Positions 29,913-49,339 of a DNA stretch of 64,000 nucleotides are shown here, piece by piece (the stretch's first letter is position 1; each line of letters opens with the position of its first letter). The DNA is from an uncultured Gammaproteobacteria bacterium (GTDB lineage Bacteria; Pseudomonadota; Gammaproteobacteria; JAADHQ01). A program made the position numbers and the translations under genes. The stretch is from positions 143,242 through 207,241 of the forward strand of contig CAMYJD010000001.1 in the NCBI GenBank assembly GCA_947258655.1, given 5' to 3'. Under the pieces are notes generated by a model, which was not told where the DNA came from, ran no database searches, and saw only the letters and a program-made list of their open reading frames with translations.

Positions 29913-32006
29913 TTATGCCGCCGGCAATGCCTCGCCCAGTGTTGCAACCACCTTAATCTGTTTGTCATCCGGCACTTCGTGATATGACAGTACATGCAAT
30001 GTCGGAATCGAATGCTTGACCAGCTTGGCCAGCCATTCGCGCAATACCGGTGAAACAATCAGTACTGCCGGCTTGCCGCTAACTTCCACCTGTTGCACAT
30101 TATTTTTCAGGGATTGAAACAGGGTATCTGCCAGCCCCGGTTCTATTCCTGCATCACCACCATCGGTGCCCTGTATAGACTGTAGCAATAACTGTTCCAA
30201 TCCTGGATCCAGGGTCATGACGGCCAATTCCGCTTCCATGCCATTGATATTCTGTACAATTGCCTGCTTCAGTGCCGTGCGCACAGCCATCGTCAACATG
30301 ACGGGGTCTTGACTCTTGGTCGCCTGGGCCGCCAAGGTCTCGGCAATCGTGCGCATATCCCGGATCGGCACCTTCTCTTCGAGCAGGTTCTGCAACACGC
30401 TCAACACGCTGCCCAATGGCAATACCTTCGGCACCAGATCCTCGACCAGTTTGGGTGCCGTTTTGGCCAGTACATCCAGCATTTTCTGCACTTCCTCGTG
30501 ACCGAGTAATTGATGGGCATTGTTCTGAATGATCTGGCTCAGATGTGTGGCTACGACGGTACTGGGATCCACGACCGTATAACCCAGGGTTTGTGCCTGC
30601 TCACGATTGACGGCATCAATCCACACCGCTTCCAGACCAAAGGCCGGATCGATGCTTTTTATCCCGTCTATCTCGCCGTAGACCTGGCCAGGATTGATCG
30701 CAAGGAACAGATCCGGGTAAATTTCGGCCTCACCGGCCATGACGCCATTAATGGCGATACGATAGTTATTCGGTCCAAGGTCCAGGTTGTCGCGGATATG
30801 CACCGGTTGTACCAGAAAGCCCAGTTCCTGGGATAACTTGCGCCGTACACCCTTTATACGATTCATCAATTCGCCATTCTGGTTACGGTCGACCAGTGGG
30901 ATCAGGCGATAGCCGACCTCCAGCCCGATCACATCCACCGGTCTGACGTCATCCCAGGACAGGTCGCGCATTTCTGCCGGTTCTTCCTCCTCCTCGGTAG
31001 CGACTTCCTCTTCTACAGGTTTGCGCTCGGCAACCATCCTGTAGTAACCGAGACCACCGACGGCCGCGGCCAGGGTCAGGAATGCGAAATTGGGCATGCC
31101 GGGGATAACCCCCATCGCTGTCAGGATGCCGCTGGTAATGAACAGGATTTTCGGATTACCGAACAGCTGTCCTACCGCCTGCTTACCCAACTCCTGCTGA
31201 CCCGATACGCGGGTAACGATAATCGCTGCCGATGACGAGATCAGCAACGACGGAATCTGTGCGACCAGACCATCCCCTATGGTCAGCAAGGTATAGTTAC
31301 GCACGGCTTCGGACAATGGCAACTCGTGCTGGACCATACCGATGGTCAGACCACCGATAATATTAATGAATAAAATAAGGATACCGGCCACGGCATCACC
31401 GCGTACGAATTTACTGGCACCGTCCATGGAACCGTAAAAATCGGCCTCCCGGCGTACTTCATCGCGCCGTTCACGCGCCTCTTCCTGTGTCAGCATGCCG
31501 GCGTTCATATCCGCATCAATGGCCATTTGCTTGCCGGGTAACGCATCCAGTGTAAAACGCGCCGTGACTTCGGCGATACGTCCGGCACCCTTGGTCACCA
31601 CAACAAAGTTGATGATCACCAGGATCGAGAACACCACCAGGCCAACGGCATAGTTACCACCGATAACAAATTCACCGAAAGCCTCGATGACCTTACCGGC
31701 CGCACCGGTGCCGGTATGCCCCTCGAGCAGGACAATACGCGTCGAGGCGATGTTCAGAGCTAGCCGGAACAGGGTTGTTACCAGCAGTACCGCCGGGAAA
31801 ATCCCGAAATCGAGGGGACGCAGGACATACACACCTACCAGCAACACGATCAACGACAGGGAAATACTGAAGGAAAAGAAAATGTCGAGCGCCAGGGGAG
31901 GTAACGGGATCACCATCATAGCCAGCAGGACCAGGATCATCGCCGGTACGCCGATGCCCTGTTGACTGACTCGCTGAAAACTTGATGCTATGCTCGCTTC
32001 TGCCAT
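29913..32006 (-). CDS. flhA: Flagellar export apparatus protein FlhA
   Basis: 697 aa, the usual length. The N-terminal half has eight membrane helices. The FHIPEP-type motif region lies in KGAGRIAEVTARFTLDALPGKQMAIDADMNAGMLTQEEARERR. The C-terminal half is the cytoplasmic ring that docks substrates and chaperones. It forms the export gate with FliPQR and FlhB. It starts a new transcription unit behind a sigma-54 promoter candidate. Confidence 0.97.
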   Translation of the reverse strand: MAEASIASSFQRVSQQGIGVPAMILVLLAMMVIPLPPLALDIFFSFSISLSLIVLLVGVYVLRPLDFGIFPAVLLVTTLFRLALNIASTRIVLLEGHTGTGAAGKVIEAFGEFVIGGNYAVGLVVFSILVIINFVVVTKGAGRIAEVTARFTLDALPGKQMAIDADMNAGMLTQEEARERRDEVRREADFYGSMDGASKFVRGDAVAGILILFINIIGGLTIGMVQHELPLSEAVRNYTLLTIGDGLVAQIPSLLISSSAAIIVTRVSGQQELGKQAVGQLFGNPKILFITSGILTAMGVIPGMPNFAFLTLAAAVGGLGYYRMVAERKPVEEEVATEEEEEPAEMRDLSWDDVRPVDVIGLEVGYRLIPLVDRNQNGELMNRIKGVRRKLSQELGFLVQPVHIRDNLDLGPNNYRIAINGVMAGEAEIYPDLFLAINPGQVYGEIDGIKSIDPAFGLEAVWIDAVNREQAQTLGYTVVDPSTVVATHLSQIIQNNAHQLLGHEEVQKMLDVLAKTAPKLVEDLVPKVLPLGSVLSVLQNLLEEKVPIRDMRTIAETLAAQATKSQDPVMLTMAVRTALKQAIVQNINGMEAELAVMTLDPGLEQLLLQSIQGTDGGDAGIEPGLADTLFQSLKNNVQQVEVSGKPAVLIVSPVLREWLAKLVKHSIPTLHVLSYHEVPDDKQIKVVATLGEALPAA

Positions 32007-32103
32007 AAAGACCTCTGATAAGTAATGCTATTTAATCAATCTGTTATACGCTGTATTGTCTGCGTATCTGGAAACCGTCAAAAACCGGTCACTATAGGGA
32101 TGG

Positions 32104-32121
32104 TTGCAAAAACTGTACCGG
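32104..32121 (-). promoter_or_regulatory. Sigma-54 promoter candidate for flhA-flhF-fleN-fliA
   Basis: On the minus strand CCGGTACAGTTTTTGCAA has GG and GC 10 bases apart with GGTAC and TTGCA elements. It lies about 98 bases before the flhA start, in the non-coding gap after flhB. It is immediately downstream of a 7-bp tandem repeat array (32126-32148). Confidence 0.75.
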
Positions 32122-32125
32122 GTAT

Positions 32126-32148
32126 GGCGAGTGGCGAGTGGCGAGTGG
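32126..32148. repeat. 7-bp tandem repeat GGCGAGT, about 3.3 copies
   Basis: Three exact consecutive copies of GGCGAGT plus GG, starting five bases upstream of the flhA sigma-54 element. Simple repeats like this change copy number by replication slippage. Confidence 0.9.
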
Positions 32149-32160
32149 TAGCTTACGAAT

Positions 32161-32202
32161 TATGACCTATGACCTATGACCTATGACCTATGACTTATGA
32201 CT
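32161..32202. repeat. 7-bp tandem repeat TATGACC/T, six copies
   Basis: Four TATGACC units followed by two TATGACT units with no interruptions, 12 bases after the GGCGAGT array and 10 bases before the flhB stop. The unit differs from its neighbour, but the period is also 7 bp. It lies where activator sites of a sigma-54 promoter would be expected. Confidence 0.9.
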
Positions 32203-32211
32203 TACAATTGA

Positions 32212-33360
32212 CTATTTTTTGCCTTTCCCTTTCCACATGTCTTCGGGAACATCTAGATCAGTAGGCATTGCTGGTGCCTGCATACCGGCAGACGTTGCCT
32301 GCTTCAGTTGATAGATATAGGCTAGTATCTGGGCAACGGCCAGATACAGACTGGCCGGTATTTCCTGATCCAGCTCTGTTGAAAAATAGACCGCCCTGGC
32401 CAATGGGGGTGCCGAGACGACGGGGACATTGTTGTCGGCGGCAATTTCACGGATACGGGCTGCAACCAGTTCGGTACCCTTGGCAACCAGTTTCGGCGCA
32501 CCCATGTTTGCATCATCATACTTGAGTGCGACGGAGTAATGGGTCGGATTGGTAATGACCACATCGGCCTTCGGAACCTGTTCCATCATTCGACGCATGG
32601 CAGCTTCCATTTGCAGATTACGTATCTTACTCTTGACCTCCGGACTACCTTCCGTCGTCTTGCGCTCGTCCTTGACTTCTTTTTTGGTCATGCGCTGCTG
32701 TTTTTTATGCTGCCATCTCTGGAACGGGACATCGATGGCGGCAATCAGGATGATGGTCGAACATACTGCAAGGAAATACCAACCTGTCATCTGCGTGCTC
32801 ATGGAATATGCCGTATCGAATTCATAGCGACTGATACGCAGGATATCATCAAATAATTCCATGATGAGAAATGCGCCCAGTCCGCCTACCAGCAATACCT
32901 TCAGTATCGATTTCACCAGTTCCATCAGCCCCTGAAATCCAAACAGCTTTTTCAAACCCTTCAATGGATTCATGTTGGATAACTTGGGTTTGATTTTTTT
33001 ACTGGACATCGTGAAGCCGCCAATCATGATCGGACTGATAAACACGGATATAAACAGTAACGCTATAAACGGTGATATAAGGATTAATGCATCCAGAAAG
33101 GTATCGGCTGCATTTCTCAGCATCATCGCCGGCTCATACATCAGGCGCCGGTCAATCGTCAACGAAGAGCGTAATAATTCTGCCAGGCCATCACCTATAC
33201 CGCGTCCCATCGTCATCAGACCGACTGCCGCCGCCATCAGTATCAGGGTTGTATTCAGTTCCCGTGACCGCGGAACCTCCCCCTTTTCCTTGGACTCCTG
33301 TAGCCGTTTTGCGGTGGGTTCCTCACTTTTTTCTTGACCGTCTTCGCTTTCAGCTGCCAT
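32212..33360 (-). CDS. flhB: Flagellar export switch protein FlhB
   Basis: 382 aa. The N-terminus ESEDGQEKSEEPTAKRLQESKEKGEVPRSREL is followed by four membrane helices. The cytoplasmic domain has the autocleavage motif NPTH in ADVVITNPTHYSVALKYD. Cleavage there switches export from rod/hook to filament substrates. It is the last gene of the fliLMNOPQR-flhB run, and its start lies three bases after the fliR stop. Confidence 0.97.
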   Translation of the reverse strand: MAAESEDGQEKSEEPTAKRLQESKEKGEVPRSRELNTTLILMAAAVGLMTMGRGIGDGLAELLRSSLTIDRRLMYEPAMMLRNAADTFLDALILISPFIALLFISVFISPIMIGGFTMSSKKIKPKLSNMNPLKGLKKLFGFQGLMELVKSILKVLLVGGLGAFLIMELFDDILRISRYEFDTAYSMSTQMTGWYFLAVCSTIILIAAIDVPFQRWQHKKQQRMTKKEVKDERKTTEGSPEVKSKIRNLQMEAAMRRMMEQVPKADVVITNPTHYSVALKYDDANMGAPKLVAKGTELVAARIREIAADNNVPVVSAPPLARAVYFSTELDQEIPASLYLAVAQILAYIYQLKQATSAGMQAPAMPTDLDVPEDMWKGKGKK

Positions 33361-47803: not shown

Positions 47804-49225
47804 TTACGACGCTTCGACATTACGGTTAAGCCCGTATTTACGCAGTTTTTCCACCAATGTGGTCCTGCGCATGTTCAATAATTTGGCGGCATGGGCGACA
47901 ACACCATCGGCTTCACTGAGTGCCTGTCGTATCAGGCTTACTTCCATATTGTTGAGGTGTTCCTTCAGATCGATACCATCACGGGGCAGGCGCGCATCAG
48001 TGACCAGGCCTTCGGGAATCGCGGCGACTGCCGCTGCCGTATCGGCATACACCGGGGCCGCGGCAATACCGTTCTCGGGACGGTATTTTTCCGGTAATTC
48101 ATGGACATCGACAAGGCCGAACGGGAACAGGATGGCCAGGCGCTCGATCAGGTTGGCGAGTTCACGGACATTTCCGCCCCACTTGAACTGGCACAACGCC
48201 ATGACCGCGGCCGGCGTCAGCCTGACCGAACCACGTTTTTCATGTTCTATCCTGGAAATCAGCTCGGTTATCAGCAGTGGTATATCTTCGATACGTTCGC
48301 GCAGTGGCGGCATTTCAATCGGGAATACATTGAGGCGATAGTACAGATCTTCACGGAATTTATTGTCGTTGATCTGGTCTTCGAGGTTTCTGTGCGTAGC
48401 CGCGATGACCCTGACATCGATATCAATACTCTTGGTACTACCTACTCGCTCAATTACGCGCTCCTGTAATACACGCAGTAATTTGACCTGCATGGGCAAG
48501 GGCATGTCACCGATTTCATCAAGAAACAGCGTACCACCTTCGGCCATTTCAAAGCGCCCCTGACGTGCACTGATTGCGCCGGTAAAGGCGCCCTTCTCAT
48601 GCCCGAACAGTTCGCTTTCAAGCAACTCGGCCGGGATCGCACCACAGTTAATAGGCACAAATGGCTTATCGCGCCTGTTGGAATAATAATGTATATTTCT
48701 GGCAACCACTTCCTTGCCGGTGCCGGACTCACCCAGGATCAACACTGTGGCATCTGTTTCGGCGACCTGTTCGACAAGACGTCTGATTTCCTGAACCTTG
48801 CGGCTACTGCCGACCAGACTACGGAATAATTCCACCGGTCTCTGCGCCGTTGTTTGTTCCTTGCTTTCACGGTACACCTGGGCATTATGCAGGGCACTGT
48901 TGATATTGGATTGCTTGAACGGGAATGTAATAACGCCGATAACCCCGGGCTCTTCGTGCTTCTCGTCTTCCTTGTCGGAAATGATGAATTTCGGCAGATT
49001 GGCGTCAACAGTGTTGGTGATTTCGAGAATGCCCGCACGTGATTGTGCTGGTGGCAGCTCGCCGATGATCAGGGCATGGAAGGGGCCGGACTGGCTCAAC
49101 AGGTCAGCAGAAAAACCTTGTCCGTCTGTCAACATGACATCATGTTCTATGAAGGACAGTATCTCCCTGAGTTGCTCCCCCCTGGACGAATCGGCATCCA
49201 TGATCAGGATCTTGTTGTTCTGCAT
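47804..49225 (-). CDS. fleQ: Master flagellar activator FleQ (FlrA)
   Basis: 473 aa from the ATG at 49225 ([14 protein letters not shown]); the open frame to 49339 is not family-like. The N-terminal receiver-like FleQ domain is followed by an AAA+ domain with Walker A GESGTGKE, the GAFTGA loop and [14 protein letters not shown]. The C-terminal Fis-type HTH is [24 protein letters not shown]. It activates sigma-54 flagellar promoters; homologues are restrained by FleN and bind cyclic-di-GMP. Confidence 0.95.
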
Positions 49226-49310
49226 AATAATTCTCGCACCCGCTGATATAAATGTCTGACTGCTGGCAAACGTGTTGTTATTGCTGAATACATCCTTGCC
49301 TATATTGCTA

Positions 49311-49339
49311 AGTAAAACACTACTTTGCAGATATGTCAA
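49311..49339 (-). promoter_or_regulatory. Sigma-70 promoter candidate for fleQ
   Basis: Minus strand: TTGACA (49339-49334), 17 bases, then TTTACT (49316-49311). The -35 element is exact and the -10 matches at four of six positions. It gives a leader of roughly 80 bases to the fleQ ATG. Sigma-70 control of the master activator is the known pattern. The rest of the 281-base gap to 49507 is AT-rich with no gene seen. Confidence 0.6.

Follow-up and report, generated by a model that had tools for sequence, protein, structure and literature searches.

Two heptamer tracts in the flhB-flhA gap

Within the 64-kb window (the whole stretch of DNA that was analysed), flhB and flhA are separated by a gap of 205 bp that contains both heptamer tracts (Table 1). 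In the order of transcription, on the minus strand, the flhB stop codon is followed by (A/GGTCATA)6, (GCCACTC)3, the promoter CGGTACAGTTTTTGCA (32120-32105, with GG-N10-GC spacing), 98 bp and the flhA start. NCBIfam models were matched above cut-off by FlhA, FlhB and FlhF, and downstream of flhA lie flhF, a fleN-like ORF, whose protein matched MinD-family models below cut-off, and a fliA-like ORF named by eye. A FleQ-like activator is encoded within the same window.

Table 1. Positions of the genes, promoter elements and repeat tracts, numbered within the window
Feature	Position	Strand	Basis or remark
flhA	29913..32006	minus	TIGR01398, score above cut-off
flhB	32212..33360	minus	TIGR00328, score above cut-off
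Sigma-54-type promoter of flhA, CGGTACAGTTTTTGCA	32105..32120	minus	GG-N10-GC core kept in 4/4 members of the genus
Candidate activator (FleQ) site TGACCGGTTTTTGAC, downstream of the flhA promoter	32077..32091	minus	Putative, from the TTGAC/GTCAA motif; shared with G003
FleQ-like sigma-54 activator	47804..49339	minus	PF06490 above cut-off; start codon uncertain
First heptamer tract, (GCCACTC)3.4 on the minus strand	32125..32148	minus	Probably what remains (right arm) of a dispersed KAGTRGC element
Second heptamer tract, (A/GGTCATA)6 on the minus strand	32161..32202	minus	Only here in this genome (G000)

Tandem Repeats Finder assigned a period of 7 to both tracts, with 3.4 copies and a 100% match at 32125-32148 (unit TGGCGAG on the plus strand), and 5.9 copies and a 97% match at 32161-32201. 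Direct reading resolved the second tract into four copies of TATGACC followed by two of TATGACT (32161-32202). These are the sole exact arrays with at least three copies and a period of 5-11 in the window, and a simulation of 60 third-order Markov sequences, each 64 kb long, yielded five such arrays in total, none of them of at least 24 bp. The repeat finder, the direct reading and the simulation thus confirm the first-pass annotation, which had described two different 7-bp arrays side by side upstream of the flhA sigma-54 promoter. Its statement that they start five bases from the -24 element was also correct, as by its exact repeat the first tract is separated from the promoter window by some 5 bp, and by 8 bp when the degenerate unit is taken.

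A dispersed KAGTRGC heptamer family

What is new is the KAGTRGC heptamer family itself, found in a gammaproteobacterial genus that we compared through four genomes (G000, to which the window belongs, G001, G002 and G003), one for each species. The first-pass annotation had advised a search for the same 7-mers elsewhere in the genome. The unit of the first tract is dispersed through G000 with 70 matches to the KAGTRGC pair; that of the second is not, as a search of G000 with the TATGACY pair pattern found no site besides the flhB-flhA gap. The KAGTRGC pair had 158 matches in G003, 15 in G002 and 2 in G001, with 0-2 for the reversed-pattern control within the genus and at most five per genome among 52 other genomes of the class. 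A looser KARTRGC triple was present in 12 of 150 Pseudomonadota genomes (its reversed control in one), and G000 ranked highest.

A catalogue of G000 holds 28 sites, mostly intergenic (25 of the 28 overlap no ORF call), and family sites adjoin many unrelated genes; a family dispersed in this way argues against the proposal that the first tract is a control device specific to the flagellum. Some sites (L194, L191 and L215) adjoin what appear by eye to be tmRNA or tRNA genes. A third heptamer of G000, AGGAGTC, is repeated 3.4 times directly after a stop codon (L130, 1087-1110), and some 180 bp further along there is a near-copy in inverted orientation.

Many sites have a short core flanked left and right by the heptamer unit in inverted orientation, and 26 elements have both arms. 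Downstream of a stop codon, inverted arms could fold in the RNA into a hairpin that terminates the upstream message or makes it more stable, which at our locus would part flhB from flhA. Consistent with this, many of the catalogued arrays begin no more than about 20 bp from a stop codon, and gaps between convergent genes account for 8 of 24 classified sites vs 24 of 205 background gaps (p about 0.005, a rough value because relatives share descent). Gap types were assigned by hand for 24 of the 28 sites, and one small flanking ORF at each of L195, L233 and L235 may be spurious. Strong hairpins are also formed at several family sites, and the G003 counterpart of our site folds better than its shuffles (z -12). 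The tract in the window, however, is a single arm that makes no hairpin and folds no better than shuffles (z +1.9), and therefore it cannot act in this way here. We regard a transcript-end role as doubtful.

Comparison of 32 cores (11 from G000 and 21 from G003) gave 107 of 496 pairs with a score of at least 24, vs a shuffle mean of 1.4, and core lengths recurred, being mostly 19, 22 or 34-38 bases. This likeness comes chiefly from G003, where many cores are near-copies nested in REP-like pairs; the best pair within G000 scores 26. The REP-like family of G003, GTAGGAGCGGCC...GGCCGCGA, has 39 matches and often encloses heptamer hairpins (e.g. L003, 3715-4076), and a search of G000 with the same pattern gave 0 matches. 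Two ideas on the origin of the elements were rejected. Faithful inverted copying of the arms is not borne out, since agreement within elements was 0.577 vs a mean of 0.634 for swapped arms, and 285 of 300 swaps reached the real value. RAYT-linked mobilisation of the G000 elements was dismissed as well: the 20-kb stretches containing the two Y1_Tnp genes have no strict pair of KAGTRGC units.

Special recurrence of the unit outside the genus was likewise rejected, as KAGTRGC was found in 80 IMG/VR stretches among the matches listed, vs 25, 51 and 101 for heptamers of equal degeneracy; GAATRGC triples were found in 67. IMG/VR contigs commonly carry triple heptamer repeats of several kinds unrelated in sequence, each pattern giving 25 to 101 stretches, and many of the KAGTRGC stretches listed have an inverted arm close by. 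A text search of a paper library for the heptamer strings returned one unrelated paper.

Tentatively, the genus may carry miniature elements that have not been described, with non-faithful inverted KAGTRGC arms and cores of recurring length bounded by A/T tracts, nested in REP-like pairs in one species. Slippage-prone arrays downstream of genes would then have started from copies of these elements, of which the flhA tract would be a decayed example. If true, this would tie the origin of heptamer microsatellites to mobile hairpins.

The same gap in sister species and the control of flhA

G003, whose FlhA is 91% identical to that of G000, has a flhB-flhA gap of 483 bp, in which GAGTGGC x4.9 runs from the flhB stop codon; next comes an insert that contains a REP-like inverted pair, and TAGTGGC x17.7 then extends to the promoter side. 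The end of the heptamer arm lies 7 bp from the promoter window in G002 and 8 bp from it in both G000 and G003. In G002 the arm is decayed (17 of 21 positions matching), and none of 500 shuffles was as good in each of G002, G000 and G003. An intact or decayed arm is thus found 7-8 bp upstream of the -24 element in three of the four species; none is recognisable in the flhB-flhA gap of G001. The leader motif TGACCGGTTTTTGACG is common to G000 and G003. As judged from sequence, then, membership of the family, the shared position and the difference in copy number between species (3.4 for the first tract in G000 vs 17.7 + 4.9 in G003) are well established, as is the placement of the activator-like motif described below. 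This four-genome comparison indicates that the heptamer arm is old, its position shared and its length greatly changed. Instability of the tracts, as had been suggested, is seen over evolutionary time: the middle that cannot be aligned measures 101 bp here vs 372 bp in G003, the nearest relative compared. The same pattern extends to other sites, for among the stretches compared the length of the middle differs at 12 of 13 matched G000-G003 sites, and 11 of the 13 have strict-unit arrays in G003.

The first-pass annotation had further proposed that changes in copy number would shift the spacing between activator or IHF sites and the promoter. From the flhA loci collected, L001, L006, L028-L031 and L033 were excluded as self-hit, truncated, fragmentary or duplicate, which left 104. 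Of these, 83 passed the looser promoter score and 31 the stricter filter, which asked for a strong promoter score as well as a clear gap. Apart from L006/L033, any duplicates shared by the unnamed and named sets were kept, and p-values are rough owing to shared descent. In an open comparison of pentamers over the 83 upstream regions, GTCAA/TTGAC ranked first for excess downstream over upstream of the promoter (33 vs 6 loci). Of the 31 selected loci, 26 have the motif within 70 bases downstream of the promoter and 5 have it upstream; most positions are 24-26 bases past the promoter window. PMC6120874 mentions a suggestion that FleQ acts near the flhA promoter without looping, and it gives the aeruginosa FleQ consensus as GTCaNTAAAtTGAC while doubting its reliability.

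With the activator site most likely downstream, an upstream tract would leave activator spacing unaltered. The proposed shift in spacing is thus not supported, and upstream-enhancer spacing was rejected after the motif scan. The tract neither overlaps nor separates promoter elements or activator sites; it ends upstream of the promoter window (5 bp away by the exact repeat, 8 bp by the degenerate unit), and the motif lies downstream. A phase-variable rheostat, in which slippage would alter expression of flhA and the genes that follow, either through an upstream activator or IHF site or through the shape of the DNA by the -24 element, could appeal to the seven-base tracts that control hmw1A of Haemophilus influenzae (PMC8262952), and to the large copy-number difference between sister species at this very site. 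The downstream motif, a tract outside the promoter with only 3.4 and 4.9 exact copies here, and a family that adjoins many unrelated genes all weigh against it. No paper on tandem repeats that make flhA phase-variable was among the ten titles listed by a literature search. A motility switch is possible, its sole support being the change between species, but a role of the tracts as such a switch is unlikely.

The (GGTCATA)6 tract, the second of the two, is best read as a local expansion in its own right; no (GGTCATA)n tract was found at the flhA locus of the three sister genomes. It might be read as amplified activator half-sites that add to the control of flhA, since each unit contains GTCA, as does the FleQ consensus quoted above, and in G000 the unit is repeated only at flhA. 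The absence of the tract at the locus in all three sisters, the direct 7-bp spacing where the consensus is inverted, and a downstream motif that is present anyway make this very improbable.

The explanation that we favour, with a probability of roughly 0.7, is that the first tract is a decayed, slippage-prone remnant of a dispersed element behind flhB, near-neutral for flhA, with the second tract a separate expansion and the activator site downstream. The ancestral element would have consisted of tandem (T/G)AGT(A/G)GC heptamers, a short core and the same heptamers inverted. Its insertion into the flhB-flhA gap, with the end 7-8 bp upstream of the -24 element, would predate the split of at least three of the species, and copy number would have drifted since, probably by strand slippage. 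In G000 it would have shrunk to one arm of 3.4 copies, and (GGTCATA)6 would have arisen separately. Because both arrays follow flhB without reaching into the promoter, and the activator site, presumably read by FleQ, is most likely downstream, a change in length would be expected to have little effect on flhA. The alternative already offered by the first-pass annotation, that of neutral intergenic repeats, fits better than a control point. On the other side, G001 has no recognisable arm and the KAGTRGC family does not explain the (GGTCATA)6 tract, and the constant distance of the arm from the -24 element, 7-8 bp, may reflect a role at the promoter rather than chance. A testable account in terms of repeat elements thereby replaces the tempting story of a motility switch: what is left of a dispersed element can take the form of heptamer tracts next to a conserved promoter.

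Comparison with known repeats

The hmw1A repeats of H. influenzae resemble the flhA tract as a seven-base tandem tract near a promoter. As described in PMC8262952, however, the hmw1A tract overlaps the promoter boxes, the constructs named there carry 13 to 24 copies and copy number changes expression. REPINs (PMC3116915) are dispersed inverted pairs that form intergenic hairpins, with singlets viewed as remnants of pairs, and in this the KAGTRGC elements are alike; they differ in stems that are heptamer tandems and in that no element stands beside the two Y1_Tnp genes of G000. The TAACTGA direct repeats of Beggiatoaceae (MacGregor 2015, PMC4679880) are also intergenic heptamers with many sites per genome in Gammaproteobacteria, although they have another unit, are placed immediately before start codons and hardly ever occur in inverted form.

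The closest likeness is to the heptameric GGGAATC repeats of Xanthomonas reported by Rehm et al. 2015 (PMC4692102), together with GGGGA(C/T)T repeats in Nostoc. These are seven-base, dispersed, mostly intergenic units close behind stop codons, as here, with positions that are shared between sister species while lengths change. In Xanthomonas they often form inverted pairs, as do 26 of the KAGTRGC elements though not the single-armed flhA tract. The KAGTRGC family is not of the quadruplex type, since its unit has no GGG run; GGTCATA has none either, and neither unit is of the GGGANTC form. Some KAGTRGC elements also differ from the repeats of PMC4692102 in having cores of recurring length, in G003 inside REP-like pairs. 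Its sequence features place the first tract, as a decayed copy, in a dispersed heptamer family of the kind described in Xanthomonas. The authors of that work thought phase variation unlikely and left the function open, and to this class our results add a heptamer family whose copies can be traced at shared sites in sister species.
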